64,000 bases of DNA, from the NCBI GenBank assembly GCA_907163375.1, contig CAJQUW010008614.1, positions 1 through 64,000 of the forward strand. The letters are read 5' to 3'. Source of the stretch: Prostheceraeus crozeri. Its lineage: Eukaryota; Platyhelminthes; Polycladida; Euryleptidae. This document shows positions 13,734 to 62,140 of this stretch, one piece after another (positions within the stretch are counted from its first letter, which is position 1; every line of letters begins with the position of its first letter). Position numbers and translations under genes: made by a program. The notes under the pieces were generated by a model, which was not told the origin of the DNA, searched no databases, and worked only from the letters and a program-made list of their open reading frames with translations.

Positions 13734-13743
13734 GTGCTCAGCG

Positions 13744-19047: not shown

Positions 19048-19160
19048 TTCATCGGGCCGATGCATGAAATCTCGTTTCGGCATCGCGGCGTCGATTTCCC
19101 ATAAAATCGATGCCTTGCCGATGCCCGAGAATTCGTCTCGGCATTGCACCTGATATTCCG

Positions 19161-37994: not shown

Positions 37995-38382
37995 AATAAT
38001 CTTTATTTTATCAATGCGAATTTATCATGAATGTTCAACCGGGATTTATGCATGAATCATCAATGCAAGTTTTTAAGATATCATAATTGCGTATTTTTGG
38101 TTCAATAATGATAATCGATGTATTTTGACAATGCATATAAGCTTTCCAATCATTAAACATGCTTACCAACAATGATTTTCAATTTTGAATAATCTTTATT
38201 TTATCAATGCGAATTTGTCATCAATGTTCAACCGAGGTTTATGCATGAATCATCAATGCAAGTTTTTAAGATATTGTAATTGCGTATTTTTGGTTCAATA
38301 ATGATAATCGATGTATTTTGACAATGCTTATAAGCTTTCCAATCATTAAACATGCTTAACAACAATGATTTTCAATTTTGAA
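37995..38382. repeat. 193-bp tandem duplication
   Basis: AATAATCTTTATTTTATC begins at 37,995 and 38,188, and the units are nearly identical over their length. The block ends near 38,445 with the complement of the CCCTAGT...CCATGG end seen at 28,456. Confidence 0.8.
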
Positions 38383-38445
38383 TTTTCCATGGATTTATTG
38401 GAATCATCGATCATGGATTCTGTGTCCATGGCTGGGCTACTAGGG

Positions 38446-39865: not shown

Positions 39866-39869
39866 ATTC

Positions 39870-40235
39870 TTCGCCACTGCCTCCGAATGTTTTGGTTTTA
39901 GCAGCAGTGAGTTTTTCTGCTGTTAATCCTTGGAGCGATTCGTAACAGGATGACTTCGATCAACAGTTATAATGTATAAATATGTAGGGCTATTCTTGTC
40001 ACTGCCTCCGAATGTTTTGGCTTTAGCAGCATTGAGTTTTTCTGCTGTTAATCCTTGGAGCATTTCGTAGCAGGATGACTTCGATCAACAGTTATAATGT
40101 ATAAATATGTAGGGCTATTCTTGTCATTGCCTCCGAATGTTTTGGCTTTAGCAGCATTGAGTTTTTCTGCTGTTAATCCTTGGAGCATTTCGCAGCAGGA
40201 TGACTTCGATCAACAATATATTCAATTAATTTCAA
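39870..40235. repeat. 125-bp tandem repeat, 3 copies
   Basis: CTCCGAATGTTTTGG begins at 39,881, 40,006 and 40,131, so the period is 125 bases. The copies differ by a few substitutions. Confidence 0.85.
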
Positions 40236-40904: not shown

Positions 40905-41298
40905 TGATATCGATATATCATCGGAAATTTAGCGACAATTCGATATCGGCAAATGAACGACTTATAGACATAATATCGATATGAGAAGCATCGGAAATAG
41001 GGCGACAATTCGATATCGGCAAATGAACGACTTATAGACGTGATATCGATATGAGAAGCATCGGAAATAGGGCGACAATTCGATATCGGCAAATGAACGA
41101 CTTATAGACATAATATCGATATGAGAAGCATCGGAAATAGGGCGACAATTCGATATCGGTCGATGGACTACAAATCGCTCACTTTTCTATTATGAATTGA
41201 TCGGAAATTGCACGATTTCACGATTGAACGATTTCTCGATGCTGAATCGAGAAAACGCTTTGAATCCGAGCATTTTCCGATCAATTTTTACCACCGGG
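40905..41298. repeat. Minisatellite, 70-bp units, with CCCGGTGGTAAAAAT end
   Basis: GCATCGGAAATAGGGCGAC starts at 40,988, 41,058 and 41,128, with a degenerate unit before and a partial one after. Each unit contains TTCGATATCGG and an ATATCGATAT palindrome. The block ends at 41,284-41,298 with ATTTTTACCACCGGG. It is the inverse relative of the array at 19.0-19.5 kb. Confidence 0.8.
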
Positions 41299-42159: not shown

Positions 42160-42165
42160 AACGTC
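42160..42165. repeat. Left target-site duplication AACGTC
   Basis: AACGTC immediately precedes the element's AGTAGTAAGTAAAAC end and is repeated exactly after the other end at 62,135-62,140. Six bases is the length left by Polinton integrases. Confidence 0.8.
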
Positions 42166-42198
42166 AGTAGTAAGTAAAACTCCACTTCTGGACCGCGC

Positions 42199-42213
42199 AA
42201 GATGGCCGCCATC
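42199..42213. promoter_or_regulatory. Palindromic YY1-like site near left terminus
   Basis: AAGATGGCCGCCATC contains two overlapping YY1-type AAGATGGC/GCCATC half sites facing each other, 33 bases inside the element end. The mirror copy is at 62,094-62,108. Confidence 0.4.
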
Positions 42214-42219
42214 GAAGAA

Positions 42220-43480
42220 TTTTCGCTGACGTCCCCCCCCTCTGGAACGACAGAGGTTGTGGTCTGTCGTGGTGTGCCGGCCAGGTTGGTCCACGTTCAC
42301 AAAATGTTCGCTGACGTCCCCCCCCCCTCGAAAACGACAGAGTGTGAGACTCGGGTGTGTTGGTCTCGTGTGGGTTGACGTGGCCGACCGCCTAGGTTGA
42401 CGTGGCCGACCGCCTAGATTGACGTGGGCGACCGTCTAGGTTGTCGTGGTGGAATGGTGAAACGGACCTGAGATTCGTGATCAGCGTAAAATTCTGCATC
42501 GGTATGGTGAATTTGAAGTCAATCGGCGAGAAAAAATGTTTCTTCAAAATTTTGACAGAGTTAAAATGTTGGACGTTTTGGGCTGTAGCGTCAAAACGAA
42601 GCATCGGATGGGAAAACGGATTTCAGATTTGGAATCAGCATGAAATTCTCCATCAACATGGTGAGTTTCAAGTCAATCGGAGAGAAAAAGTTTCGCTGAC
42701 GCCCCCCCCCCTCGGGAGAGCTAGCTTCGATCTTGGCTTCCAGTGGACGGATTTTGTCGTGCCATACCTCGTTTGAAAGCTAAGAGTGAGACAAATTCAC
42801 TGAAAGAAACGGCTTGTTCATATCGGTCTTCGTTTAGATGTGAGACGCCATTTAAGATTTTGGGACATTGGCGAAAAACGACAGAGTTAGAATTTTGGAC
42901 GTTTTGGGCTGTAGCTTCAAAACGAAGCATCGGATGGGAAAACGGATTTCAGATTTGGAGTCAGCATGAAATTCTCCATCAACATGGTGAGTTTGAAGTC
43001 AATCGGAGAGAAAAAATTTTCAACATTTTTCGAAAAAACGACAGAGTTAGAATTTTGGTCATTTTGGGCTGTAGCGCCAAAACGAACCATCGGATGGGAA
43101 AACGGAGGCCAGATTCGGATTCAGCGTGAAATTCTGCATCGATATGGTGAATTTGAACGCAATCGGAGAGAAAAAGTTTCGCTGACGTCCCCGCCCCTCG
43201 GGAGAGCTAGCTTCGATCTTGGCTTCCAGTGGACGGATTTTGTCGTGCCATAGCTCGTTTGAAAGCTAAGAGTGAGACAAATTCACTGAATTTTTCATCA
43301 CAAAATTTTTTTCGAAAAAACGACAGTTAGAATTTTCGCGATGGCTGTGGGATGTAGAGCAAAAACACAGCATCGGATGGGAAAACGGAGGCCAGATTCG
43401 GATTCAGCGTCAAATTCTACATGGAATTGGTGTATTTCTAGCTCAATCGGACCTCTAGAATCGGCGATAGAAGCGTTTTA
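42220..43480. repeat. Left terminal repeat region
   Basis: Units carry the word CGGATGGGAAAACGGA at 42,605, 42,931, 43,091 and 43,374. The basic unit is about 160 bp and is sometimes extended by a block of about 165 bp that begins CGCTGACGTC and a C-run. The C-runs follow GCTGACG at about 42,230, 42,312, 42,695 and 43,182. The same repeats are open in several frames, so the apparent proteins here are probably not real. The region lies just inside the TIR and could hold replication or transcription control signals. Confidence 0.7.
42374..42448. repeat. 22-bp iterons, 3.4 copies
   Basis: GTTGACGTGGCCGACCGCCT starts at 42,374 and 42,396, with variants at 42,418 and 42,440. The mirror set is at about 61,861-61,935. 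Short direct iterons near a terminus suggest a protein-binding array. Confidence 0.7.
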
Positions 43481-43500
43481 AGTGTTTGGATGATGGATAT

Positions 43501-43560
43501 TACGTCATCAGCTGATCGCCACACACTATATAAGCTGGGAACCGAGAGAGACTTGTCATT
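43501..43560 (+). promoter_or_regulatory. TATA promoter directed inward, left arm
   Basis: TACGTCA (43,501), the E-box CAGCTG (43,510) and TATATAAG (43,527-43,534) are followed 50 bases later by AGAGGTAGGT, a possible splice donor. The mirror copy has CTTATATA at 60,354-60,361. Which transcript it drives is unknown, since the nearest gene on this strand is the polymerase 2 kb away. Confidence 0.45.
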
Positions 43561-43989
43561 AAGACGAGAGCGATTGTCAGAGGTAGGTCGTCTCTCTGAG
43601 CTCCGATGATAGCTTCGGACATTCCAAAATCCGAGTTTCTGTAAGAAACCGACTTAGAAAATTTCATTGCTGATATCAGCTAAGGCGTCAGACTTAGAGG
43701 TTAGCCAGGAGATGGCCTTCGTCTCCAGGCCATAAAAGACTCCAAAACTTTAAAGGCTTGTAACTTTGCTTCTACAAGTCCGTTTGACTTGATTCAAAAA
43801 AGGTTCGGTCGCTATTGACCTGCCCTAAGTGATTAACTACTTATAAAATTTCATAAGTAGTGCTAAAAAGTTGAAAAATTTAAATTCAATGAAAGCATTT
43901 TTAATGATGTCTGAGCCAGTTTTCTCATGGTATTAGCGGCTTTTCACTGAAAGCGAGCAAGACACGGAGAGTTTTGCTGTAATATTCCA

Positions 43990-44730
43990 CTGACAGGGTG
44001 TTCCTTCGGGACGGCGGACGATGCCGTAGTGATAAGTGTGGCAAGGGAGTGTGTCATATTTTAGACCGAAACCGCTGGGACAACTCATGTCTCATGTTGG
44101 GCATTTGACACAGTTCTCCACGTAGCACTTTGAACGCCAATCGTTGAGTCTCAGCTATCTTGTCATGGGTGGCCTCTAAACATCTCCATTGCAAAACGCT
44201 GGTGAATCAAGCTCTCTACGGCTTGCTATCAAGCTGCTCAAAGTCTGTCAACCTCTTACCAACTCTACAGGTTTTCATGCCTGGCGAATACTATCATTAA
44301 GTTGAATCTGCTATCAGTCAACTTGAATGTTGCAAATGAAGTTCGGTGTAATACTTCCTTTCGACGGGCGTTCCTGTAAAGGGCGGCGGTGAAACCCGTA
44401 GCTATGTATACCGCAAGGGACAATCGGCAATGGTCAATCTTGTTAAACCTCTCTGCGTCATGTTTGCAAGTGATTGCCTCTGTCTCAACGTAGTATGCAT
44501 TCGCGCCAGGGCGACATTTAGCCAGCTGTCGAAGGTTGCCTTATAAACTATCCATTGCATACGTTATGAGAACCATGAGTTCTACCTGTCTCTATCAATG
44601 AGACGAATTGATGAATGGAATGAAATGGGAGGACACTCACGCGCCACACGCAACATAACACACTTCTCTCTTCCATAGTCTAACAAGCTCTTTACACATG
44701 GATCGCAGTCGATTGCTATCCCAGAATCAT
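43990..44730. repeat. Diverged ~370-bp tandem units, left arm (2 copies)
   Basis: The pattern GTTCCT..GG.GGCGG...CCGTAG...CAAGGGA occurs at about 43,999-44,047 and 44,369-44,420, and CCATTGCA at 44,186 and 44,552. The period is therefore 366-370. The right arm has three such units, two of them nearly identical. Confidence 0.6.
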
Positions 44731-44922
44731 GTAAGCTATCTTAGTTTTATTTAACACTATTTCCTCTACCATTATCGCCCATATGAAATGTTATAAGATT
44801 TGCAAGTTAAACTAAGTGTGCTACTATTTCCAAATGAAAAAGTATACATGGTTGAATCATCCACTGAAGCCCCATTTAAGTAAGTCAGTATGAAAGCAAA
44901 GATAATACGAAATAAAAATTTA

Positions 44923-45377
44923 TTATGGCATGTATTTCAAAAGGTCTTCATCGTCAATACCGTCCCAGAGTCTGCCTTCACACAGATCACAAAAACAGTT
45001 CACTTGCTTCAATCGTTCTTCTACCGCGAGCCTCACTTTGTCGATGTACTCCCACTCCGCCATAGTTCGTGGCTGGGAGTTAGGGGTGCACCATTCCCAT
45101 AATTGATGGAGGAATTTGGTGCTGGTGATCTCCATCACATCATCAGTATCATACTGCAGATACTTCCATCGTATGCCTGTTAGGTCGGGACACTCCTTCT
45201 CACATACACTCTCCTGTTCGTCATCCGCTGCTAATGACAACTTTCTAATGTTGTCGAGTCGGTATAATTTCTCCACCTTCCCCTTCGTTGGAGCGTTTGG
45301 TGCAACGAGCGCCTTTGGCGATGAGCATGGAGAAGAGAACTTCAATTTGTGTTCGATGTTTTTGGAGGGCTTCTCAT
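44923..45377 (-). pseudogene. Unknown Polinton gene A, left arm copy
   Basis: About 151 codons, divergent from the polymerase. The likely start is the ATG at 45,377-45,375. A run of five A's about 15 bases on puts this ATG one base out of frame with the long downstream frame, identically in both arms. The product is rich in Lys and acidic residues. Recognisable pieces are KLYRLDNIRKLSLAADDEQE, TKFLHQLWEWC, EYIDKVRLAVEERLKQVN and a CxxC pair in CFCDLCEGRLWDG. No signal peptide or membrane segment is seen. I do not recognise the family. It occupies the position of a small regulatory or replication-associated gene. Confidence 0.5.
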
Positions 45378-45433
45378 GTTGACTGTGAATAATGACTTTG
45401 AAATGTTTTCTAATTCTTAAGTATAAACAAGCA

Positions 45434-45482
45434 ACCAATCAGAATGAACAGCCAATGAATGATGAATATGAAAGTATATATG
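45434..45482 (+). promoter_or_regulatory. CCAAT/TATA promoter of the polymerase gene, left arm
   Basis: CCAAT at 45,435 and 45,452 and TATATATG at 45,475-45,482 precede the polymerase start codon (45,666). TATATA is symmetric, so the divergent gene A may use it too. The leader carries about 2.4 copies of a 41-bp repeat (TTTGAGACGTATAAGTGAA..., 45,512-45,610). Confidence 0.55.
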
Positions 45483-45665
45483 CAAAGTGACATTCGTGTC
45501 ATTTTACACTGTCTTTGAGACGTATAAGTGAAGTGTTCTCTAGCGAATTCTATATTTGAGGCGTACAAGTGAACTGCTCTCTCGTGAATTCCAAATTTGA
45601 GACGTATTATTTGAGTAAAGTCTCTATCTTGTTGAAGTATCAACCTTAAACTTGATTTCGTTGAA

Positions 45666-48600
45666 ATGGTAAGTTGAAAATTTCTTCACTCATCTCCCTC
45701 AAACGTGTGGCTAATAGCATCTTCCTCAATTTCAGGCATCAACTTCATCACCAACGCCCTCCCTTCTCGAGGAAAGTTTAGAGTTGTTGAGTGAAGGTAG
45801 GTTGTAACAATACACTGAGACTTGAACAGAGATGATAGAATGATTTCTCTTTCAGGTGATGTGAGTTCCAGCTCAGGACTCTCGCGACAAGGCAACGAGT
45901 GCGAATGTGCCGACTGCGGACATACGTTTACAAGGAAGCACAGTCTCCTTCGACACATCAAACAACGTGTGTGTCAACGCAAAGCGGCATCAATCTCCGA
46001 AGTTGAAGTTGATTCTGACGATGACATCTCCTTTCCTTGCGATTTGTGCCCTCTTTCTTTTGATAGTCACTTTCAGCGATCTTCACACAGACTTCAAGAC
46101 ACGCATGCAAATGATCACTACACCAACGGTACCTCTACCATCTCCCTCATTAATGTTTCACAATAATTTAGTACGCGACTACTGCATGGAGTCCAATACT
46201 CAAATAGTAGATTTTCCTGAGTGGCTCCTTCAAAATTCTAACATTATCGAAGCGCTCTTCAACAATTTAGACAATTTTAGAATGAAGGCGCTCATCTACC
46301 TTAAACTAAAATATATTAAAATAGATTTTCAAACGGGTCAAGTGACGGAGAGAATACAGTTTCATGTTCCTTCCTCTTCCGCAACCGAAGTTGTAGACTG
46401 CGAGTCTTGGCTAAATTTTCACATTCAATGTTTAAAATCAAATGTAGATAAATTCAATGAACGCGACAGCGCTCTCATTTTTGATGGTGTGGACTCAGCC
46501 ATATTCAAAATTTCCGTATTAGAAAGTCATGCAGCTCGAGGCACATTTAAACTACCAAAAACGTTGTATAATAAGAAAGCTGTCATCAATGTCGATTGTA
46601 AATCACAGTGTTTCAAATATGCAGTCCTACCATCCTTCACTATAATGATATCAACGCGCATCGAGATCGCACCTATAGCTATAGACAGTGGGAGGATGAA
46701 CTAGACTTTGAAGGTTGTGATAGTAACAACATGAAAATCAAAGATGTAGAAACGTTCGAAAAACATAATCAGATTAAAATTGTCGTTCACGTGTGGGAGA
46801 AGGGGTTGAAGGGTGCCCGCTATAATTCACGTTCAACTTGTTATGAACGTGTAGTCAACCACTTATTAGTAAAACAAGATGATAGTGAGGAATGGCACTA
46901 CTGTGGTATTCCCAAAATCTCTCGCTTGTACACACACTTAGGGCACTCTAAAAGAGGTGAACATTTTGTATGCGACCGCTGCATCCGCTCCTTTTGGAGT
47001 AAAGATAAATTTGAAACTCACTATGAATGGTGCAAGCGAGGTAAATTACAAATGGAACGCATGCCCAAAGATAAAATATTTTCACATAGGGATAATGGTG
47101 ACGAATTAATTTCCCTGCGTGTCATTTACGCAGACATAGAATGCTACATTGATGATATCATCCACAAGCCAGCAGCCATATCCTGCTATGAAGTATGGCA
47201 TGACCACCTTAGGAATAGACAAAACAAAATGCATACTTGGCAAGGTGAAGATTGTATTTCAAAATTTCTAGAATTTCTCGATAAAGCTGCTAAATTTCAA
47301 CAATCATATGATTCCCAATTGCAGCGTAAGTCACTACATATGTCAGATGAAGACAAACAGAAATTTGAAAGTTGCACATCGTGCCCTAAATGTCATAAAA
47401 CGTTTGATGACGATAAAATTAAGAAAGTGCGTGATCATGATCACATCACTGGTAAATTTAGAAACGCACTCTGCTCCAAATGTAACTTTTCACTTAGGTT
47501 GAGACGTCTTGTACTACCCGTCATTTTTCATAACTTTAAGGGCTATGACAGTCATATGCTCATAAAAGGAGGGTTGAGCCAGATGAAATCGTGTCAGTTT
47601 AATGTAATAGCGCAAACGAGAGAAAATTCATGGCAATGACAGCAAAAGTACCAGTAGATAAAACTAAAGAAAATAAGACAGTCTTCTTCGAAATAAAATT
47701 TTTAGATTCATTCCAATTCATGTCAGCGTCACTAGCTTCTCTCGTTCATAATCTCAAGTTTCTTCCCCATAGTCAAACTTTGAAGAAACACTATCCAAAC
47801 TTAACGGATGAAATAATCACTCGCAAAGGAGTCTTTCCCTATGCGTATTTTAGCTCAATGTCTAAACTAAATGAAACAACCCTTCCTTCCATTGACAAAT
47901 TCCAAAACGATTTGACGGTCAAGATTGTCCAGTAGAGGACTATGAACATGCTCAAGAGGCATGGTTAAAATTTGATTGTAAAACGTTTGGCGATTATATG
48001 ATCGCTTACTTAGAATTAGATGTCATTTTGCTGGCTGATGTCTTTCAGGAATTTCGACGAGTGGCATTAGAAGAAGACAAATTAGATCCTGTCCACTTTG
48101 TCAGTCTACCAGCCATGTCCTTTAAATCAGCCTTTAAAATGACTGGTGAGACCATCCATCTCTTACAAGACCCGGAGATGTATAACATATTTGAGCGCGG
48201 AATACGCGGTGGTCTCACATTTGTGAATAAACATCACATAAAATCCTAAAACAGTAGGTAATGATCATATCCACCTAAAATACTATGACCAAAATAATTT
48301 ATATGGCAGTTCACTGTCTAAACCACTACCTCATTCCGAGTTTAGTTGGTTAAATCAAGATGAGCTTGCGTATTACTCCAACCCTTCAAACATTCTGAAC
48401 ATTCCAGATGAAGGTGATTGGGGATATTATTTTGAAGTGGATTTGATTTATCCAAATAGTATTAAAAATAAAACTGCTGATTTCCCACTCGCACCTGAAT
48501 CTGGTGAAGTGACTGAAGATATGTTTTCACCATTCATGTCACAATTTCATAGTAACTTAATAGAGTGTGGACAGCCAAGGTACAAACCATGCCGCAAACT

Positions 48601-49630
48601 TTTACTCACCCAATATGATAAGAAAAATTATCTCGTACACTTCTGCATACTAAAATTCTATTTAGAAATGGGCATGCTTCTAAAGTCAGTTCACCGCATC
48701 ATCAAATTTAGACAGAAAGCCTTCCTCAAACCATATATTGATAGTAGCAGCCAGAAACGTGCACTCGCCCAAAATAATTTTGAAAAAGATTTTTATAAGT
48801 ATAAGAATAATAGTCTATTTGGTAAGACGATGGAGGATGTTAGAAAACGCATGAACTACAAACTAGTCATTGATGATCAAAAATATCACAAATTGACCTC
48901 ATCACCTCTTTTCATTGATAGAGACATTATCGATGAGGACCTTGTAGGTGTTAAAATGATAAAATCTGAAGTTGAGTTGTGTAAGCCCATCTATATTGGT
49001 CAAGCTGTACTAGATTACTCTAAGCTTGAAATGTACCAACTCTTTTATAAAATACTAAAACCATGTCCTCTCGTAAAAGAGGTTCGTTTGTTGGGTGGTG
49101 ATACAGATAGTTTCTCCTTATGTATTACCACTCAAAAAGATTTAAATTTTAATGAAGTAGCTAAGTCATTAGAAAAATATTTCGACACATCTAACTACAA
49201 TCCCACTCATCATTCCATACAGAATAAAGCCAAACTTGGTTGTTTTAAGGATGAAACAGCAGGAAAGGAAATAGATGAAATGATTCTCCTCCGTCCTAAA
49301 ATGTATTCCATGAAATTAAAAGAATGTGCAGATAGTATTAAGCGTGCTAAAGGTATATCAAAATCCATTGTTCACAAAATGAAACATCGGTCCTATAAGA
49401 AGGCCTATAAAAATAAAACTATAACGTTTGTCAATATGACAATCTTAAAATCTCAAGTTCATACTGTGAAAACGCACACGTTCAAGAAACGAGCGCTTTC
49501 AGCATGGGAGGATAAGAGGTGTTGGATAGGACATAACACATCTCTTCCACATGGACATCCTGACACAAACATACCTCCACCCAAAAGAATAAAACTCACG
49601 CTACCACATTCAGGAGATGTATTGACATAA
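45666..49630 (+). pseudogene. Protein-primed-type DNA polymerase B with zinc fingers, left arm copy
   Basis: Synthesises the element's DNA (DNA_pol_B_2 family). The start ATG (45,666) directly precedes a GTAAGT donor. Introns 45,669-45,735 and 45,797-45,855 have clean GT-AG ends and keep phase. A third possible 43-bp intron (46,129-46,171) also restores phase. N-terminal C2H2 fingers: CADCGHTFTRKHSLLRHIKQ, then CDLCPLSFDSHFQRSSHRLQ. Next come LPKTLYNKKAVINV, a CDRCIRSFWSKDKFETHYEW finger, Exo I YADIEC (about 47,130), the CPKC...RDHDHITGKFRNALCSKC knuckle, Exo II FHNFKGYDSH, Exo III YLELDVILLADVF, Pol A YYDQNNLYG, Pol B NNSLFGKTMEDV (about 48,810) and Pol C GGDTDSF (about 49,095). Single-base frame breaks lie near 46,630, 47,623, 47,917 (this arm only) and 48,240. 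AATAAA is at 49,790. Confidence 0.85.
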
Positions 49631-49810
49631 TCTTAACTTTAACTCAGTATTTTGATGTTGCTTTTTGTAGATATACATGGTTGTTTTATGTATCGCATGA
49701 GATCGTTTCTTCCTTGTGAATATATGCCTACAGTTAGCCCATTTCCCTATATCTGTGAAAAGACTTTTTCATACACATATTTTTATTTCAATAAACATAT
49801 CACAATGACT

Positions 49811-50102
49811 TCACTTTGTTTTCCGAAACACTAAAGTTACGAGGGATTTAGTATCTTTCACATGGATGCACTCTTGTAAACCATTGGTAATTTTGATAGC
49901 AATAGAGGGTATAGCTTGTTTGACGACGGGGTGATAGAAAATAGATTCAAACATCTTCTCGACTATTCCATATGAAGCGTCCTTTTCATGAATGAAATCA
50001 CGTAAAATGTATTCTTTTTTCTCACCAACAGAAATAGGTAGAATCAAATCACTTTGGGTCGATCATATCTTTTTCAAATGACTGTGGAATATTGATTTCC
50101 AT
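49811..50102 (-). pseudogene. Unknown Polinton gene B, left arm copy
   Basis: About 95 codons, convergent with the polymerase, with the 3' ends about 180 bases apart. The ATG is at 50,102-50,100 (MEINIPQSFEKDMID). A C-run after 15 codons shifts the frame by one base, identically in both arms. The remainder (KEYILRDFIHEKDASYGIVE, FYHPVVKQAIPSIAIKI, TLVFRKTK) is open to the stop. It is a small soluble-looking protein that I do not recognise. Confidence 0.45.
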
Positions 50103-50149
50103 GATGAAGATTTAAACAGTTAGATTCGATGACGAACAAGATTTACTAG

Positions 50150-51757
50150 TTTGCAAGTTAAACTAAGCGTTATATTATTTGTAAATGAAAGATATAGTTT
50201 CAACAGTTTACAGATTACAAAATAAAGTTTCAATAGTGTTTATGTTAAAAATAAAGTTTAAGCTGTTTGTGTGTTAGAAATAGAATAAAGTTTCAACAGT
50301 TTGTCGATTAAAAATAAAGTTTCAACAGTGTGTACGTTAGAAATAAAGTTTTATCTGTTTGTAAAATGAGATTGTAGGATTTACTAGTTTGCAAGTTAGA
50401 CTAAGCGTTCTACTATTTGTAAACGAAAGATATAGTTTCAACAGTTTACAGATTAAAAATAAAGTTTCAACAGTGTGTACGTTAGAAATAAAGTTTTAGT
50501 CGTTTGTGCGTTAGAAATAAAGTTTCAACCGTTTACAAGTTAAAAATAAAGTGTCAATAGTGTGTATGTTAAGAATAAAGTTCTATCTGTTTATATGTTA
50601 GAAATAAAAATGAAGGTTCACCAGTTTACAAGTTAAGAATATAGTGTCATCTGCTTGTATGTCAGAAATGAAATAAAGTTTCACCAGTTTAAAAGTTGAA
50701 AATAAAGTTTCAATAATGTGTACGTTAGAAACAAAGTTTCAACCGTTTACAAGTTAAAATTAAAGTTTCAATAGTTTACAAGTTAAGAATAAAGTTCTAT
50801 CTGTTTATATGTTAGAAATAAAAATGAAGGTTCAATAGTTTACAAGTTAAGAATAAAGTTTCATCCGCTTGTATGTCAGAAATGAAATAAAGTTTCACCA
50901 GTTTACAAGTTAAAAATAAAGTTTCAATAATGTGTACGTTAGAAACAAAGTTTCAACCGTTTACAAGTTAAAATTAAAGTTTCAATAGTTTACAAGTTAA
51001 GAATAAAGTTTCAATAGTGTGTATGTTAAGAATAAAGTTCTATCTGTTTATATGTTAGAAATAAAAATGAAGTTTCAACCGTTTACAGGTTAAGAATAAA
51101 TTTTATCTGCTTCTATGTTAGAAATGAAATAAAGTTTCACCAGTTTACAAGTTAAAAATAAAGTTTCAATAGTGTGTACGTTAGAAATAAAGTTTCAATA
51201 GTGTGTATGTTAAGAATAAAGTTTTATCTGTTTGTATGTTAGAAATAAAATGAAGCTTCACCAGTTTACAAGTTAAGAATAAAGTTTTATCAGCTTGTAT
51301 GTTAGAAATAAAATGAAGTTTCACCAGTTCACAAATTAAAAATAAAGTTTCAATAGTGTGTACGTTAGGAATAAAGTTTCAACCGTTTACAAGTTAAAAA
51401 TAAAGTTTCAACAGTGTCTACGTTAGAAATAAAGTTTTATCTGTTTGTAAAGTACGATCGTAGGATTTACTAGTTTGCAAGTTAGACTCAACATTCTACT
51501 AGTTGTAAATGAAAAATATCGTTTCAACAGTTTACAGATTAAAATAAAGTTTCCATAGTGTGTATGATGGAAATAAAGTTTAAGCGCTTTGTGAGTTAGA
51601 AATAAAGTTTCAGCCGTTTACAAGTTAAAAATAAAGTTTCAACAGTGTGTACGTTAGAAATAAAGTTTTAGCTGTTTATATGTTAGAAACAAAATACAGT
51701 TTCAACCGTTTACAAGTTGAAAAATAAAGTTTCAACAGTGTGTACGTTAGAAATAAA
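50150..51757 (+). repeat. AATAAAG minisatellite, about 29-bp units
   Basis: Roughly fifty degenerate units alternate between AATAAAGTTTCAACCGTTTA and AATAAAGTTTCAACAGTGTG types, each ending in a TTAGAA or TTAAAA tail. Nearly every unit contains an AATAAA hexamer on the plus strand. The first 480 bases belong to the left arm and the rest is the unpaired loop of the palindrome. Confidence 0.85.
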
Positions 51758-51867
51758 TGAAAGTAAGAACTTCATCGTATGAGTGTTCAAAGCATGTTTT
51801 GTAAATCAAATGTGTGTAGTACTGACATGATAGAATCAAATGAACTTGACAAACGCGTTCTTTACTT
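50630..51867. other. Loop (spacer) of the 20-kb palindrome
   Basis: It is mostly the AATAAAG minisatellite. The last 110 bases (51,758-51,867) are unique and contain no recognised gene. The right arm begins at 51,868 with the complement of 50,629. Confidence 0.7.
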
Positions 51868-52345
51868 GTAAACTGGTGAACCTTCATTTTTATTTCTAAC
51901 ATATAAACAGATAGAACTTTATTCTTAACATACACACTATTGACACTTTATTTTTAACTTGTAAACGGTTGAAACTTTATTTCTAACGCACAAACGACTA
52001 AAACTTTATTTCTAACGTACACACTGTTGAAACTTTATTTTTAACTTGTAAACGGTTGAAACTATATCTTTCGTTTACAAATAGTAGAACGCTTAGTCTA
52101 ACTTGCAAACTAGTAAATCCTACAATCTCATTTTACAAACAGATAAAACTTTATTTCTAACGTACACACTGTTGAAACTTTATTTTTAATCGACAAACTG
52201 TTGAAACTTTATTCTATTTCTAACACACAAACAGCTTAAACTTTATTTTTAACATAAACACTATTGAAACTTTATTTTGTAATCTGTAAACTGTTGAAAC
52301 TATATCTTTCATTTACAAATAATATAACGCTTAGTTTAACTTGCA
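51868..52345 (-). repeat. AATAAAG minisatellite, right arm copy
   Basis: Inverted copy of 50,150-50,629, so AATAAA now lies on the minus strand, downstream of the right-arm polymerase. Confidence 0.85.
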
Positions 52346-52394
52346 AACTAGTAAATCTTGTTCGTCATCGAATCTAACTGTTTAAATCTTCATC

Positions 52395-52686
52395 ATGGAA
52401 ATCAATATTCCACAGTCATTTGAAAAAGATATGATCGACCCAAAGTGATTTGATTCTACCTATTTCTGTTGGTGAGAAAAAAGAATACATTTTACGTGAT
52501 TTCATTCATGAAAAGGACGCTTCATATGGAATAGTCGAGAAGATGTTTGAATCTATTTTCTATCACCCCGTCGTCAAACAAGCTATACCCTCTATTGCTA
52601 TCAAAATTACCAATGGTTTACAAGAGTGCATCCATGTGAAAGATACTAAATCCCTCGTAACTTTAGTGTTTCGGAAAACAAAGTGA
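52395..52686 (+). pseudogene. Unknown Polinton gene B, right arm copy
   Basis: Mirror of the left copy, with the same ATG (52,395), the same one-base shift in the C-run at 52,439-52,441 and an identical translation over the 78-codon remainder. AATAAA follows at 52,710. No function can be assigned. Confidence 0.45.
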
Positions 52687-55604
52687 AGTCATAGTGATAT
52701 GTTTATTGAAATAAAAATATGTGTATGAAAAAGTCTTTTCACAGATATAGGGAAATGGGCTAACTGTAGGCATATATTCACAAGGAAGAAACGATCTCAT
52801 GCGATACATAAAACAACCATGTATATCTACAAAAAGCAACATCAAAATACTGAGTTAAAGTTAAGATTATGTCAATACATCTCCTGAATGTGGTAGCGTG
52901 AGTTTTATTCTTTTGGGTGGAGGTATGTTTGTGTCAGGATGTCCATGTGGAAGAGATGTGTTATGTCCTATCCAACACCTCTTATCCTCCCATGCTGAAA
53001 GCGCTCGTTTCTTGAACGTGTGCGTTTTCACAGTATGAACTTGAGATTTTAAGATTGTCATATTGACAAACGTTATAGTTTTATTTTTATAGGCCTTCTT
53101 ATAGGACCGATGTTTCATTTTGTGAACAATGGATTTTGATATACCTTTAGCACGCTTAATACTATCTGCACATTCTTTTAATTTCATGGAATACATTTTA
53201 GGACGGAGGAGAATCATTTCATCTATTTCCTTTCCTGCTGTTTCATCCTTAAAACAACCAAGTTTGGCTTTATTCTGTATGGAATGATGAGTGGGATTGT
53301 AGTTAGATGTGTCGAAATATTTTTCTAATGACTTAGCTACTTCATTAAAATTTAAATCTTTTTGAGTGGTAATACATAAGGAGAAACTATCTGTATCACC
53401 ACCCAACAAACGAACCTCTTTTACGAGAGGACATGGTTTTAGTATTTTATAAAAGAGTTGGTACATTTCAAGCTTAGAGTAATCTAGTACAGCTTGACCA
53501 ATATAGATGGGCTTACACAACTCAACTTCAGATTTTATCATTTTAACACCTACAAGGTCCTCATCGATAATGTCTCTATCAATGAAAAGAGGTGATGAGG
53601 TCAATTTGTGATATTTTTGATCATCAATGACTAGTTTGTAGTTCATGCGTTTTCTAACATCCTCCATCGTCTTACCAAATAGACTATTATTCTTATACTT
53701 ATAAAAATCTTTTTCAAAATTATTTTGGGCGAGTGCACGTTTCTGGCTGTTACTATCAATATATGGTTTGAGGAAGGCTTTCTGTCTAAATTTGATGATG
53801 CGGTGAACTGACTTTAGAAGCATGCCCATTTCTAAATAGAATTTTAGTATGCAGAAGTGTACGAGATAATTTTTCTTATCATATTGGGTGAGTAAAAGTT
53901 TGCGGCATGGTTTGTACCTTGGCTGTCCACACTCTATTAAGTTACTATGAAATTGTGACATGAATGGTGAAAACATATCTTCAGTCACTTCACCAGATTC
54001 AGGTGCGAGTGGGAAATCAGCAGTTTTATTTTTAATACTATTTGGATAAATCAAATCCACTTCAAAATAATATCCCCAATCACCTTCATCTGGAATGTTC
54101 AGAATGTTTGAAGGGTTGGAGTAATACGCAAGCTCATCTTGATTTAACCAACTAAACTCGGAATGAGGTAGTGGTTTAGACAGTGAACTGCCATATAAAT
54201 TATTTTGGTCATAGTATTTTAGGTGGATATGATCACTACCTACTGTTTTAGGATTTTATGTGATGTTTATTCACAAATGTGAGACCACCGCGTATTCCGC
54301 GCTCAAATATGTTATACATCTCCGGGTCTTGTAAGAGATGGATGGTCTCACCAGTCATTTTAAAGGCTGATTTAAAGGACATGGCTGGTAGACTGACAAA
54401 GTGGACAGGATCTAATTTGTCTTCTTCTAATGCCACTCGTCGAAATTCCTGAAAGACATCAGCCAACAAAATGACATCTAATTCTAAGTAAGCGATCATA
54501 TAATCGCCAAACGTTTTACAATCAAATTTTAACCATGCCTCTTGAGCATGTTCATAGTCCTCTACTGGACAATCTTGACCCGTCAAATCGTTTTGGAATT
54601 TGTCAATGGAAGGAAGGGTTGTTTCATTTAGTTTAGACATTGAGCTAAAATACGCATAGGGAAAGACTCCTTTGCGAGTGATTATTTCATCCGTTAAGTT
54701 TGGATAGTGTTTCTTCAAAGTTTGACTATGGGGAAGAAACTTGAGATTATGAACGAGAGAAGCTAGTGACGCTGACATGAATTGGAATGAATCTAAAAAT
54801 TTTATTTCGAAGAAGACTGTCTTATTTTCTTTAGTTTTATCTACTGGTACTTTTGCTGTCATTGCCATGAATTTTCTCTCGTTTGCGCTATTACATTAAA
54901 CTGACACGATTTCATCTGGCTCAACCCTCCTTTTATGAGCATATGACTGTCATAGCCCTTAAAGTTATGAAAAATGACGGGTAGTACAAGACGTCTCAAC
55001 CTAAGTGAAAAGTTACATTTGGAGCAGAGTGCGTTTCTAAATTTACCAGTGATGTGATCATGATCACGCACTTTCTTAATTTTATCGTCATCAAACGTTT
55101 TATGACATTTAGGGCACGATGTGCAACTTTCAAATTTCTGTTTGTCTTCATCTGACATATGTAGTGACTTACGCTGCAATTGGGAATCATATGATTGTTG
55201 AAATTTAGCAGCTTTATCGAGAAATTCTAGAAATTTTGAAATACAATCTTCACCTTGCCAAGTATGCATTTTGTTTTGTCTATTCCTAAAGTGGTCATGC
55301 CATACTTCATAGCAGGATATGGCTGCTGGCTTGTGGATGATATCATCAATGTAGCATTCTATGTCTGCGTAAATGACACGCAGGGAAATTAATTCGTCAC
55401 CATTATCCCTATGTGAAAATATTTTATCTTTGGGCATGCGTTCCATTTGTAATTTACCTCGCTTGCACCATTCATAGTGAGTTTCAAATTTATCTTTACT
55501 CCAAAAGGAGCGGATGCAGCGGTCGCATACAAAATGTTCACCTCTTTTAGAGTGCCCTAAGTGTGTGTACAAGCGAGAGATTTTGGGAATACCACAGTAG
55601 TGCC

Positions 55605-56570
55605 CAGTGGCGGCTCTATGGATTTCTGTTAGGTCATGCTCATCAATTTTTACTGGCTGACGAAATGGGGATGGTCAAACACAGTTTCAAAAGTTTTACA
55701 ACTTCGGGCAAGCTCTTTTGTAAATCCTCAGAGAAAATGAATTTTAATAAGTCTTTCAATGGTTTCTTGAAGTCATCATCGTGATAATAAATTTTAATTC
55801 ATTTTGGAGACGACTTATATCAAAAAAATCTTCATATGCAGATTTTAGAGATCGGAGTAGATGGTGAGGGAAATCCCATTGATAAGAAGAAAAGAAATTC
55901 ATGTCCAGGAGGCTCAGAAATTCAAAATCTTTGTGATCACGAAAGCGTGCTTCCATACCTTCAGAAATTGTGTCAATAATTTTGAACATAAGGGGACACA
56001 ATTCTGATGCAATTCGTTCTTCCGTCTTATGATTGGGGAGCATCTCAAAAACCTTTGCTGTCAAATCATGATACTCATCATCAGAGTCGTAAACAACTGA
56101 GACTCGAGACATCTCATGATTTCACTACACCGATAAAATCAGCAGATTGCCGTCCAATCAGCTACCGTTAGTTGGTTGAAACGAGCTATACGTATCATTT
56201 GTGCTTCCCGTCCACGGCATGAGATGGAGTATGTAAATCGTCATCCGCAGATTTTGCTATTGTTCTCCCGTCAGATGATCCGGCCAATAACAAATGAGGT
56301 ATGCTCGAATTGACTTGCGTTCCCCTGAATTTTTTAGAACAAGTTAGCTACTTGATAAATCTTAATTGAGTATGACCTTAATGTCACAGCAACATGATCT
56401 GACATAGTAATCAAATGTTGTCAAAGCTTGAAAATGATGTTGGAAGTTTTTTTGTTGATTCAAAACTTTCCATTTCTTGTGGTTGGCATCGTTGATTTGT
56501 GTGGAGGAAAATTAGACAAAATACTTCGTCATGCTGAGCATGAAGGGCATGATCGCTAAAGCCGCCACTG
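55605..56570 (-). mobile_element. hAT element nested in the right-arm polymerase
   Basis: The ends are CAGTGGCGGCTCTA and TAAAGCCGCCACTG, flanked by a perfect 8-bp duplication GTAGTGCC (55,597-55,604 and 56,571-56,578). The left arm has the empty site, with one GTAGTGCC (complement GGCACTAC, about 46,894-46,901). The 966-bp length plus the duplication exactly explains the 974-base offset between the arms. Confidence 0.9.
55756..56112 (-). pseudogene. hAT transposase fragment
   Basis: 118 codons starting MSRVSVVYDSDDEYHDLTAK, with EGMEARFRDHKDFEFLSLLD and LKSAYEDFFDISRLQNELKF. The ARFRDH..F.FL.LLD stretch resembles the region ahead of the dimerisation domain in THAP12/ZMYM-like hAT proteins. 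No DNA-binding, catalytic or dimerisation domain is present, so the element is non-autonomous. Confidence 0.6.
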
Positions 56571-57990
56571 GTAGTGCCATTCCTCGCTATCATCTTGTTT
56601 TACTAATAAGAGGTTGACTACACGTTCATAACAAGTTGAACGTGAATTATAGCGGGCACCCTTCAACCCCTTCTCCCACACGTGAACGACAATTTTAATC
56701 TGATTATGTTTTTCGAACGTTTCTACATCTTTGATTTTCATGTTGTTACTATCACAACCTTCAAAGTCTAGTTCATCCTCCCACTGTCTATAGCTATAGG
56801 TGCGATCTCGATGCGCGTTGATATCATTATAGTGAAGGATGGTAGGACTGCATATTTGAAACACTGTGATTTACAATCGACATTGATGACAGCTTTCTTA
56901 TTATACAACGTTTTTGGTAGTTTAAATGTGCCTCGAGCTGCATGACTTTCTAATACGGAAATTTTGAATATGGCTGAGTCCACACCATCAAAAATGAGAG
57001 CGCTGTCGCGTTCATTGAATTTATCTACATTTGATTTTAAACATTGAATGTGAAAATTTAGCCAAGACTCGCAGTCTACAACTTCGGTTGCGGAAGAGGA
57101 AGGAACATGAAACTGTATTCTCTCCGTCACTTGACCCGTTTGAAAATCTATTTTAATATATTTTAGTTTAAGGTAGATGAGCGCCTTCATTCTAAAATTG
57201 TCTAAATTGTTGAAGAGCGCTTCGATAATGTTAGAATTTTGAAGGAGCCACTCAGGAAAATCTACTATTTGAGTATTGGACTCCATGCAGTAGTCGCGTA
57301 CTAAATTATTGTGAAACATTAATGAGGGAGATGGTAGAGGTACCGTTGGTGTAGTGATCATTTGCATGCGTGTCTTGAAGTCTGTGTGAAGATCGCTGAA
57401 AGTGACTATCAAAAGAAAGAGGGCACAAATCGCAAGGAAAGGAGATGTCATCGTCAGAATCAACTTCAACTTCGGAGATTGATGCCGCTTTGCGTTGACA
57501 CACACGTTGTTTGATGTGTCGAAGGAGACTGTGCTTCCTTGTAAACATATGTCCGCAGTCGGCACATTCGCACTCGTTGCCTTGTCGCGAGAGTCCTGAG
57601 CTGGAACTCACATCACCTGAAAGAGAAATCATTCTATCATCTCTGTTCAAGTCTCAGTGTATTGTTACAACCTACCTTCACTCAACAACTCTAAACTTTC
57701 CTCGAGAAGGGAGGGCGTTGGTGATGAAGTTGATGCCTGAAATTGAGGAAGATGCTATTAGCCACACGTTTGAGGGAGATGAGTGAAGAAATTTTCAACT
57801 TACCATTTCAACGAAATCAAGTTTAAGGTTGATACTTCAACAAGATAGAGACTTTACTCAAATAATACGTCTCAAATTTGGAATTCACGAGAGAGCAGTT
57901 CACTTGTACGCCTCAAATATAGAATTCGCTAGAGAACACTTCACTTATACGTCTCAAAGACAGTGTAAAATGACACGAATGTCACTTTGC

Positions 57991-58038
57991 ATATATACTT
58001 TCATATTCATCATTCATTGGCTGTTCATTCTGATTGGT
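57991..58038. promoter_or_regulatory. CCAAT/TATA promoter, right arm copy
   Basis: Mirror of 45,434-45,482: CATATATAC at 57,989-57,997 and two ATTGG words at 58,016-58,038. It serves the right-arm polymerase (minus strand) and possibly gene A (plus strand). Confidence 0.5.
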
Positions 58039-58094
58039 TGCTTGTTTATACTTAAGAATTAGAAAACATTTCAAAGTCATTATTCACAGTCAAC

Positions 58095-58549
58095 ATGAGA
58101 AGCCCTCCAAAAACATCGAACACAAATTGAAGTTCTCTTCTCCATGCTCATCGCCAAAGGCGCTCGTTGCACCAAACGCTCCAACGAAGGGGAAGGTGGA
58201 GAAATTATACCGACTCGACAACATTAGAAAGTTGTCATTAGCAGCGGATGACGAACAGGAGAGTGTATGTGAGAAGGAGTGTCCCGACCTAACAGGCATA
58301 CGATGGAAGTATCTGCAGTATGATACTGATGATGTGATGGAGATCACCAGCACCAAATTCCTCCATCAATTATGGGAATGGTGCACCCCTAACTCCCAGC
58401 CACGAACTATGGCGGAGTGGGAGTACATCGACAAAGTGAGGCTCGCGGTAGAAGAACGATTGAAGCAAGTGAACTGTTTTTGTGATCTGTGTGAAGGCAG
58501 ACTCTGGGACGGTATTGACGATGAAGACCTTTTGAAATACATGCCATAA
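58095..58549 (+). pseudogene. Unknown Polinton gene A, right arm copy
   Basis: Mirror of the left copy, translation-identical over the long frame. The ATG is at 58,095 and the A-run with the one-base frame offset at 58,109-58,113. The stop is at 58,547-58,549, overlapped by AATAAA at 58,548-58,553. Identity of protein sequence between the arms may reflect youth or gene conversion rather than selection. Confidence 0.5.
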
Positions 58550-59192
58550 TAAATTTTTATTTCGTATTATCTTTGCTTTCATACTGACTTACTTGAATGG
58601 GGCTTCAGTGGATGATTCAACCATGTATACTTTTTCATTTGGAAATAGTAGCACACTTAGTTTAACTTGCAAATCTTATAACATTTCATATGGGCGATAA
58701 TGGTGGAGGAAATAGTGTTAAATAAAACTAAGATAGCTTACATGATTCTGGGATAGCAATCGACTGCGATCCATGTGTAAAGAGCTTGTTAGACTACGGA
58801 AGAGAGAAGTGTGTTATGTTGCGTGTGGCGCGTGAGTGTCCTCCCATTTCATTCCATTCATCAATTCGTCTCATTGATAGAGACAGGTAGAACTCATGGT
58901 TCTCATAACGTATGCAATGGATAGTTTATAATTCAACCTTCGACAGCTGGCTAAATGTCGCCCTGGCGTGAATGCATACTACGTTGAGACAGAGGCAATC
59001 ACTTGCAAACATGACGCAGAGAGGTTTAACAAGATTGACCATTGCCGAATGTCCCTTGCGGTATACATAGCTACGGGTTTCACCGCCGCCCTTTACAGGA
59101 ACGCCCGTCGAAAGGAAGTATTACACCGAACTTCATTTGCAACATTCAAGTTGACTGATAGCAGATTCAACTTAATGATAGTATTCGCCAGG

Positions 59193-59934
59193 CATGAAAA
59201 CCTGTAGAGTTGGTAAGAGGTTGACAGACTTTGAGCAGCTTGATAGCAAGCCGTAGAGAGCTTGATTCACCAGCGTTTTGCAATGGAGATGTTTAGAGGC
59301 CACCCATGACAAGATAGCTAAGACTCAACCGATTGGCGTTCAAAGTGCTACGTTGAGAACTGTGTCAAATGCCCAACATGAGACATGAGTTGTCCCAGCG
59401 GTTTCGGTTTAAAATATGACACACTCCCTTGCCACACTTATCACTACGGCATCGTCCGCCGTCCCGAAGGAACACCCTGTCAGTGGAATATTACAGCAAA
59501 ACTCTCCGTGTCTTGCTCACTTTCAGTGAAAAGCCGCTAATACCATGAGAAAACTGGCTCAGACATGAAAACCTGTAGAGTTGGTAAGAGGTTGACAGAC
59601 TTTGAGCAGCTTGATAGCAAGCCGTAGAGAGCTTGATTCACCAGCGTTTTGCAATGGAGATGTTTAGAGGCCACCCATGACAAGATAGCTAAGACTCAAC
59701 CGATTGGCGTTCAAAGTGCTACGTTGAGAACTGTGTCAAATGCCCAACATGAGACATGAGTTGTCCCAGCGGTTTCGGTCTAAAATATGACACATTCCCT
59801 TGCCACACTTATCACTACGGCATCGTCCGCCGTCCCGAAGGAACACCCTGTCAGTGGAATATTACAGCAAAACTCTCCGTGTCTTGCTCGCTTTCAGTGA
59901 AAAGCCGCTTATAGCATGAGAAGACTGGCTCATA
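59193..59934. repeat. 371-bp exact-type tandem duplication, right arm
   Basis: CATGAAAACCTGTAGAGTTG starts at 59,193 and again at 59,564. The copies are nearly identical. Together with the older unit nearer gene A, this makes three ~370-bp units, against two in the left arm. Confidence 0.9.
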
Positions 59935-60353
59935 CATCATTAAAAATGCTTTCATTGACTTCAGCAGGGTCGAAGACCCCAGAAAACCTCCAAAACTAGT
60001 GAATTTAAATTTTTCAGCTTTTTAGCACTACTTATGAAATTTTATAAGTAGTTAATCACTTAGGGCAGGTCAATAGCGACCGAACCTTTTTTGAATCAAG
60101 TCAAACGGACTTGTAGAAGCAAAGTTACAAGCCTTTAAAGTTTTGGAGTCTTTTATGGCCTGGAGGCGAAGGCCATCTCCTGGCTAACCTCTAAGTCTGA
60201 CGCCTTAGCTGATATCAGCAATGAAATTTTCTAAGTCGGTTTCTTACAGAAACCCGGATTTTGGAATGTTCGAAGCTATCATCGGAGCTCAGAGAGACGA
60301 CCTACCTCTGACAATCGCTCTCGTCTTAATGACAAGTCTCTCTCGGTTCCCAG

Positions 60354-60361
60354 CTTATATA
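60354..60361 (-). promoter_or_regulatory. TATA promoter directed inward, right arm
   Basis: CTTATATA is the complement of TATATAAG at 43,527, with the same E-box and TGACGTA neighbours. Confidence 0.4.
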
Positions 60362-60399
60362 GTGTGTGGCGATCAGCTGATGACGTAATATCCATCATC

Positions 60400-62080
60400 C
60401 AAACACTTAAAACGCTTCTATCGCCGATTCTAGTGCTCCGATTGAGCTGGAAATACACCATTTCCATGTAGAATTTGACGCTGAATCCGAATCTGGCCTC
60501 CGTTTTCCCATCCGATGCTTTGTTTTGGCTCTACAGCCCACAGCCATCGCGAAAATTCTAACTCTGTCGTTTTTTCGAAAAAATTTTGCGAAGAAAAATT
60601 TTTTTCTCTTCGATTGACTTTTTTTTCGCCAATGTCCCAAAATCTTAAATGGCGTCTCACATCTAAACGAAGACAGGTATGAACAAGCCGTTTCTTTCAG
60701 TGAATTTGTGTCACTCTTAGCTTTCAAACGAGCTATGGCACGACAAAATCCGTCCACTGGAAGCCAAGATCGAAGCTAGCTCTCCCGAGGGAGGGGGGTC
60801 AGCGAAACTTTTTCTCTCCGATTGACTTGAAACTCACCATGTTGATAGAGAATTTCATGCTGATTCCAAATCTGATATCCGTTTTCCCATCCGATGCTTC
60901 GTTTTGACGCTAGAGCCCAAAACGTCCAAAATTCTAACTCTGTCGTTTTTCGCCAATGTCCCAAAATCTTAAATGGTGTCTCACATCTAAACGAAGACAG
61001 GTATTAACAAGCCGTTTCTTTCAGTGAATTTGTCTCACTCTTAGCTTTCAAACGAGCTATGGCACGACAAAATCCGTCCACTGGAAGCCAAGATCGAAGC
61101 TAGCTCTCCCGAGGGGGGGGGACGTCAGCGAAACTTTTTCTCTCCGATTGCGTTCAAATTCACCATACCGATGCAGAATTTCACGCTGAATCCGAATCTG
61201 GCCTCCGTTTTCCCATCCGATGGTTCGTTTTGGCGCAACAGCCCAAAACGACCAAAATTCTAACTCTGTCGTTTTTTCGAAAAATGTTGAAAATTTTTTC
61301 TCTCCGATTGACTTCAAACTCACCATGTTGATAGAGAATTTCATGCTGACTCCAAATCTGAAATCCGTTTTCCCATCCGATGCTTCGTTTTGAAGCTACA
61401 GCCCAAAACGTCCAAAATTCTAACTCTGTCGTTTTTCGCCAATGTCCCAAAATCTTAAATGGCGTCTCACATCTAAACGAAGACCGATATGAACAAGCCG
61501 TTTCTTTCAGTGAATTTGTCTCACTCTTAGCTTTCAAACAAGCTATTGCACGACAAAATCCGTCCACTGGAAGCCAAGATCGAAGCTAGCTCTCCCGAGG
61601 GGGGGGGCGTCAGCGAAACTTTTTCTCTCCGATTGACTTGAAACTCACCATGTTGATAGAGAATTTCATGCTGATTCCAAATCTGAAATCCGTTTTCCCA
61701 TCCGATGCTTCGTTTTGACGCTACAGCCCAAAACGTCCAACATTTTAACTCTGTCAAAATTTTGAAGAAACATTTTTTCTCGCCGATTGACTTCAAATTC
61801 ACCATACCGATGCAGAATTTTACGCTGATCACGAATCTAAGGTCCGTTTCACCATTCCACCACGACAACCTAGACGGTCGCCCACGTCAATCTAGGCGGT
61901 CGGCCACGTCAACCTAGGCGGTCGGCCACGTCAACCCACACGAGACCAACACACCCGAGTCTCACACTCTGTCGTTTTCGAGGGGGGGGACGTCAGCGAA
62001 CATTTTGTGAACGTGGACCAACCTGGCCGGCACACCACGACAGACCACAACCTCTGTCGTTCCAGAGGGGGGGGACGTCA
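60400..62080. repeat. Right terminal repeat region
   Basis: TCCGTTTTCCCATCCG words lie at about 60,498, 60,878, 61,206, 61,366 and 61,688, five against four on the left, so one unit was gained. The G-runs before ACGTCAGCG and the 22-bp iterons are mirrored. Confidence 0.7.
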
Positions 62081-62093
62081 GCGAAAATTCTTC

Positions 62094-62108
62094 GATGGCG
62101 GCCATCTT
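62094..62108. promoter_or_regulatory. Palindromic YY1-like site near right terminus
   Basis: GATGGCGGCCATCTT, mirror of 42,199-42,213. Confidence 0.4.
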
Positions 62109-62134
62109 GCGCGGTCCAGAAGTGGAGTTTTACT

Positions 62135-62140
62135 AACGTC
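62135..62140. repeat. Right target-site duplication AACGTC
   Basis: It directly follows the TTTTACT end and is identical to 42,160-42,165. Confidence 0.8.

Follow-up and report, generated by a model that had tools for sequence, protein, structure and literature searches.

The stretch of DNA analysed here (the window) comprises 64,000 nucleotides of contig CAJQUW010008614.1 from the flatworm Prostheceraeus crozeri and contains a 20-kb palindrome related to the Polintons (Mavericks). Its inverted arms (42166-50639 and 51858-62134) are enclosed by duplications of the hexanucleotide AACGTC. From the tip inwards, an arm consists of a repeat-containing zone of 2.7 kb that is largely non-coding, an outward-facing open reading frame (ORF) of 171 codons and an inward-facing gene for a family B DNA polymerase (polB), followed by an ORF fragment of 83 codons and a tandem array with a 29-bp period. 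Three arm-to-arm blocks of 2759, 2723 and 1025 nt are 100% complementary as rounded, and gapped comparisons agree. Besides a hAT-like insertion and a 371-bp duplication, the right arm has 421 bp more of repeats belonging to the terminal inverted repeat (TIR). The hAT-like insertion (55605-56570) is absent from three pieces of the allele on contig C9562, whose matching arm lacks part of the region. The apparent loop between the arms (50640-51857) is made up of the left remainder of the 29-bp array and 100 bp of the centre, while the right mirror is absent; this 1.2-kb segment is the result of a later one-sided deletion, by which the right half of the centre was lost. The original prediction, made from the letters of the window, had placed arms and loop together between two AACGTC copies, had noted AGTA/TACT at both outer ends and had located the polymerase within long inverted arms. 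All of this proved correct, with the qualification that the right tip lacks its outer 7 nt. The arms, each with its own polB copy, measure 8.5-10 kb. Positions 50,629 and 51,867, regarded there as the ends of a single arm, are borders of the later deletion in the window copy and not a copy-back junction.

In Pfam, pieces of polB gave matches to a C2H2 finger, to an endonuclease-VII-like domain and to DNA_pol_B_2, and the motif GGDTDS was spotted by eye. Frameshifts break the gene in both arms of the window copy. The closest relatives of the largest piece (75-77% identity) reside on short public contigs of 1.0-3.6 kb. A related polB (41% identical) on a 17.4-kb viral contig (L001, of which 13.5 kb were examined) adjoins a gene for an rve integrase, and the same contig carries a Pox_A32 ATPase gene, which ties this polB family to Polintons. 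Relatives of the window polB are also encoded on contigs L002-L009, which are filed under bacterial or archaeal metagenome-assembled genomes and are probably eukaryotic contamination. Comparison with solved structures gave no sequence match to a solved polymerase, and phage records and most scans of viral contigs yielded nothing useful. One structure prediction for the small protein was uninformative (mean predicted local distance difference test score, pLDDT, 37). A suspected frameshift of the 171-codon ORF, considered as a lesion of the window copy, was dropped, being present in two other copies. According to the original prediction, genes for integrase, ATPase and capsid are missing, and indeed none was recognisable among the ORFs examined with Pfam or, at eight centre loci, by eye. 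There was no Pfam match to an rve integrase among the ORFs of the unit that were scanned (11 of the 46 with at least 50 codons, plus right-arm ORFs) and none to a capsid protein, protease or packaging ATPase among the 11 of 46, a scan that diverged small proteins could escape. The eight centre loci contained no ORF of 90 codons or more other than those recognised by eye as polB.

The window's own 2.05-Gb assembly was searched for further copies. Among the 40 matches listed for a 1.2-kb arm query, 28 form 14 same-contig pairs, and among the 40 listed for polB, 30 form 15 such pairs; all pairs face inwards. Central parts were retrieved for 10 of the 13 arm pairs found besides the window (C62, C1221 and C3385 were left out), and all 10 loci showed inverted polB on either side of the central array. 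On contig C9201 the same palindrome extends along the whole length. All 11 elements read in addition to that of the window show the same palindrome and carry polB in either arm. One of them, C9562, is allelic to the window (flank 99.0% identical over 1787 bp), and C5280 and C3223 have a left flank in common (99.0% over 2041 bp). The number of separate insertions among the 12 elements is therefore 10 at most. The window thus contains one decaying copy of a multi-copy palindromic family.

Both tips were found in seven of the 12 elements, and all seven are flanked by perfect 6-bp duplications that differ from each other (AACGTC, TTGTTC, TTTGAT, CCCATG, CCCCTC, CATATA and CGCGGA). The remaining five lack one or both tips, which were lost, mutated or lie past the contig end. 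The terminus, AGTAGTA, is of the AGT-repeat type, as in Mavericks. An exact-match search of the assembly with the 18-base tip gave 1903 + 1814 places (control, 0 + 1), a count that includes at least one integrase-bearing relative and may include allelic contigs. The proposal that the palindrome was inserted as one unit is confirmed by these duplications, and the check suggested with it, a search for this palindrome at further loci where the 6-bp duplication differs, was positive in all seven cases. It had also been argued from the AACGTC bracket that the palindrome existed before or at integration. Here the conclusion stands while the argument does not: the bracket alone is not compelling, because Polinton ends are already inverted and copying directed inwards could leave the duplication intact; it is the other copies that settle the matter.

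In its original form the centre is a dyad, AACGCGTT, with an asymmetry of 4 nt, CAAATGAACTTG on one side and CAAGCTTG on the other. The 100 bp that lie beyond the array in the window were recovered in 10 of the 11 other elements, the exception being C5812. In C3971, C2047, C5375, C3507 and C12643 both halves are kept and are joined at ACAAACGCGTTTGT or at a sequence that differs from it by one base, and in C5280 and C3223 the asymmetric centre is present in reverse orientation. The window and its allele C9562 both lack the right half and have the same junction except for one base. A genome-wide pattern search (up to two mismatches, no gaps; read-backwards controls gave 0) returned 270 + 277 = 547 matches to the asymmetric centre. 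Symmetric patterns matched at 26 places (long/long at 15, short/short at 11), such that 547 of 573 centre matches are asymmetric. Two of the places listed (C2047 and C3971) are palindromes that were also read directly. A palindrome refolded in each generation would be symmetric, and the one shared asymmetry therefore points to a single origin and to replication through the centre. Most likely, the palindrome formed once and has since been copied through its centre. Its anatomy, with one genome end present as two mirror copies that meet in a short dyad, is that of a copy-back molecule.

Selection on polB was assessed by the ratio of non-synonymous to synonymous substitution rates (dN/dS) for three segments of the gene in one arm each of 10 elements (the allelic C9562 and C3223 were left out), which gave 45 non-independent pairs. 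The median dN/dS was 0.19 (range 0.10-0.28) for the 27 pairs with dS of at least 0.05; eight pairs fell between dS 0.03 and 0.05. When the two arms within each element were compared and all 12 elements pooled, the ratio was 0.76 (26 synonymous and 80 non-synonymous changes). Three pairs that share no element gave values of 0.14-0.23 and differed from the arm pattern with Fisher p values of 3e-5, 2e-7 and 2e-4. When a single polB segment was pooled, dN/dS amounted to 0.13 between elements versus 1.25 between arms. Changes in polB thus bear the mark of purifying selection when distant copies are compared and are near neutral between the arms of one copy. An own polymerase under purifying selection argues against dependence on a helper for this function.

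In the tree, the two arms of an element group as sisters in all 12 cases (support 0.92-1.0), and by raw identity over one 1.4-kb polB segment they are closest to each other in 10 of 12 elements. For the insertion shared by C5280 and C3223, two segments contain 20 and 16 sites, respectively, that are the same in both arms of an allele but differ between the alleles, and none is arm-specific; the corresponding numbers for a third, badly aligned TIR segment are 5 and 0, with 211 single differences. A recount on mapped columns yielded 31 allele-type and no arm-specific sites for this insertion, and 3 and 0, with 11 single differences, for the window and C9562. Homogenisation of the arms by conversion after insertion is therefore well supported. 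The frame breaks in polB vary between elements, and some copies keep long open frames. By our reading, at least one break is common to both arms in nine of the 12 elements and none in three. Such shared breaks are explained by arm-to-arm conversion, for which the two alleles provide independent support. The idea that the polymerase was dead before the duplication, based on the shared lesions, was rejected, as the breaks differ between elements and the two alleles show the same effect. Note that the two arms of the window differ by 32 substitutions in 2661 aligned bp outside position 44877 and by only 12 in 5754 bp inside it (for stretches doubled in the right arm the nearer copy was taken), and that none of 2000 permutations produced an equally strong change-point. 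If the outer zone had diverged long ago, arm-specific sites common to both alleles would be expected there, yet none is shared with C9562. Purifying selection on the inner arms is an unlikely cause of the step, since arm-to-arm dN/dS is near neutral (1.25 and 0.76).

Table 1 Features of the palindromic element in the window
Feature	Position	Strand	Evidence or remark
Target-site duplication AACGTC, left	42160..42165		Identical to 62135-62140
Left terminal tip AGTAGTAAGTAAAACTCC, (AGT)2-type end	42166..42183	+	Exact-tip search of assembly
Left arm	42166..50639	+	Inverted-repeat and gapped comparison
Outer zone of left arm, mostly non-coding	42173..44877	+	About 1.2% diverged from partner
ORF, 171 codons, function not assigned	44923..45438	-	Relatives P0121 (92%) and P0122 (69%)
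polB in frame-shifted pieces	45819..49630	+	C2H2 zinc finger, endonuclease-VII-like, DNA_pol_B_2, GGDTDS
Small ORF fragment, 83 codons, 3' of polB	49811..50062	-	
29-bp tandem array, left half of central region	50188..51757	+	
Centre segment, 100 bp	51758..51857	+	Extends into dyad AACGCGTT (51852-51859)
Right arm	51858..62134	-	Centre-proximal part missing
83-codon ORF, second copy	52435..52686	+	
Second polB, frame-shifted	52867..57653	-	Split by hAT-like insertion
hAT-like insertion, 966 bp, right arm only	55605..56570		Ends CAGTGGCGG/CCGCCACTG, 8-bp duplication GTAGTGCC
171-codon ORF, second copy	58034..58549	+	
Tandem duplication of 371 bp, right arm	59189..59937		
Right terminal tip, outer 7 nt missing	62124..62134	-	Inward reading AGTAAAACTCC
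Target-site duplication AACGTC, right	62135..62140		Identical to left copy

The element is very probably a palindromic, polymerase-bearing Polinton derivative, a 20-kb genome that spreads as a palindrome and probably receives its integrase in trans. It would have originated once: during replication of a terminally primed parent, the growing strand would have folded back near GACAAACGCGTTTGTC and served as its own template in the outward direction, whereby both ends became the polB end. Replication may then start from two identical AGT-repeat tips, be carried out by the element's own polB and run end to end across the centre, which would preserve the asymmetry. The polymerase family and the AGT-repeat ends suggest that this replication is protein-primed. 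Integration would be catalysed by the enzyme of full Polintons bearing the same tips. After insertion, gene conversion between the arms would spread disabling mutations to both while the copy decays. In the window copy the right half of the centre would have been lost later, and a hAT element would have landed in the right arm.

Integration in trans by the integrase of full Polintons is plausible. None of the 129 matches listed for a Polinton-type integrase query lies at the 12 elements. Compared with the first 100 tip places listed, at least one integrase match, on contig C83, is situated 6.7 kb from an exact tip. The region C83:73200-77300 (L078) contains a Polinton-like terminus with the same tip and two ORFs, 179 and 254 codons long, that match nothing in Pfam. 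Seven ORFs from four retrieved integrase loci were scanned with Pfam. At L074, rve was found, a neighbour matched Pox_A32 below the cut-off and another ORF had no useful match; L075 has a P-loop ATPase as neighbour, L076 gave no match, and L077 combines rve with Chromo next to a further ORF without match.

In principle, the palindrome could also have formed at its present site after integration, if repair primed in the right TIR had copied the left interior inwards. In its favour, the similarity of the arms is lower beyond 44877 than within it, frame breaks are common to both arms, and an inward event would keep AACGTC. This model was rejected because the same palindrome and the same centre occur at other loci with different duplications, and with the asymmetric centre at 547 places and the shared breaks explained by arm conversion, as seen in the two alleles, it has become very improbable. 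Assembly artefacts, i.e., long-read foldback or polishing errors, are hardly credible either. Polishing with cross-mapped reads could render the two arms falsely similar, but it does not account for different flanks with matching 6-bp duplications, for a hAT insertion in a single arm and private arm differences, or for one conserved centre at hundreds of places.

The two other explanations concern the nature of the mobile unit. The original prediction saw a defective genome, and one may envisage copy-back molecules that are made anew repeatedly from full Polintons and mobilised wholly in trans, polymerase included. The anatomy equals that of copy-back molecules, polB is broken in many copies, and neither an integrase nor a capsid gene was found in the ORFs examined. 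Repeated origin would, however, give varied or symmetric centres, whereas 547 of 573 share one asymmetry (other centres fall outside this count), and polB shows purifying selection between distant copies, with long open frames in some. A defective genome is thus not supported, and its repeated formation appears quite unlikely. It is unlikely as well that the palindrome represents, in integrated form, a linear replicon of 10 kb that is closed by a hairpin at one end, with the centre as a telomere junction. The duplex copy of an imperfect hairpin end, as known for poxviruses and parvoviruses, would look like the dyad seen here, which is nearly perfect and has a small asymmetric bulge. On the other hand, a gene for a resolvase was not recognised, symmetric centres, which frequent repair of hairpins should produce, are rare (26 of 573), and the predicted fold of the centre is expected of any palindrome.

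Several observations weigh against a palindrome that spreads as such with a borrowed integrase. Among the listed matches, 12 of 40 for the arm query are unpaired and 10 of 40 for polB are unpaired or far apart, and a single-arm parent with this polB was not identified. The unread pairs on C62, C1221 and C3385 have gaps of 27.5, 22.1 and 18.3 kb compared with the usual approximately 12 kb and are candidates for nested insertions or larger relatives. The centre counts are pattern matches and not palindromes that were read, and they may include allelic contigs. At low divergence the signal of selection is weaker: the 10 element pairs with dS below 0.03 have a median dN/dS of 0.56 (0.40-0.94), and two close pairs reach 1.00 and 1.09 for the single segment. 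In addition, the pairs share branches, and the selection could in part predate the palindrome. With regard to conversion, C9562 (nearer its allele) and C3971 each have an arm that is closer to another element, and two outer segments compared between the window and C9562 gave 3 and 2 allele-type sites and no arm-specific ones. The terminus on C83 shares its terminal 49 bp (94%) with the unit, the TIR being otherwise mostly different, so the integrase donor is deduced from a single locus that shares the tip. A free replicating form was not seen.

Elsewhere in the window, positions 13699-14556 (+) contain an intact ORF of 285 codons with a thioredoxin domain, similar by eye to the transmembrane protein TMX2. 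A fragment of a hAT dimerisation domain resides at 12043-12546 (+) and, recognised by eye, a piggyBac-like fragment at 16312-16710 (-), both of them remnants of other transposons. Tandem arrays at 19159-19497, 37994-38383, 39866-40215 and 40919-41159 have periods of 67, 193, 125 and 70 bp, respectively.

Taken together, a copy-back genome seems to have turned into a lineage, copied faithfully through its centre, present at hundreds of places and with its polymerase under selection. As a tentative proposal, it might represent a class of mobile element in its own right: a palindrome of one Polinton half and its mirror that is stably inherited, with its own polymerase, a borrowed integrase and hundreds of chromosomal copies, beyond a virus-like life, the free form of which may be a hairpin with one origin and one double-stranded end. 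Within this one genome it could be tested whether Polinton replication proceeds by way of long duplexes or of fold-back strands, whether the integrases of Polintons can act in trans on elements with the same tips, and at what rate inverted arms of 8-10 kb are converted in a chromosome. Cut-offs for TIR length and repeat masking may cause such palindromes to be missed or mis-assembled.

With Polintons/Mavericks the unit shares a family B polymerase of the DNA_pol_B_2 type, (AGT)2-type ends, 6-bp duplications and inverted termini. According to an excerpt of PMC8097293, vertebrate Mavericks are 12.7-24.6 kb long and have AGT-type end motifs, 6-bp duplications and TIRs of 46-1447 bp (mean 402), in contrast to the arms of 8.5-10 kb described here. 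The unit further differs in having polB inside the arms, twice, and in the absence of a recognised integrase, ATPase or capsid gene. A literature search by title, with most subscription papers outside reach, found no palindromic Polinton among the titles listed. The palindromes of Y chromosomes have arms kept alike by arm-to-arm gene conversion, and in this respect chromosomal palindromes resemble the unit, which differs from them as a mobile element with many independent insertions. Teratorn, as described in an excerpt of PMC6431247, has a piggyBac-like transposase, herpesvirus genes and a unique region and is not a Polinton. A literature search yielded nothing, among the titles listed, on copy-back palindromic forms of linear plasmids. 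Copy-back or palindromic deletion forms of linear plasmids, e.g., the derivatives of yeast pGKL, are generally regarded as defective by-products, and the usual picture of copy-back genomes in terminally primed replicons is one of short-lived molecules. The unit is like them in that the end of a terminally primed genome continues, across a short dyad, into its own mirror image. Unlike them, it looks inherited, is integrated at many chromosomal sites and has a polymerase under selection.

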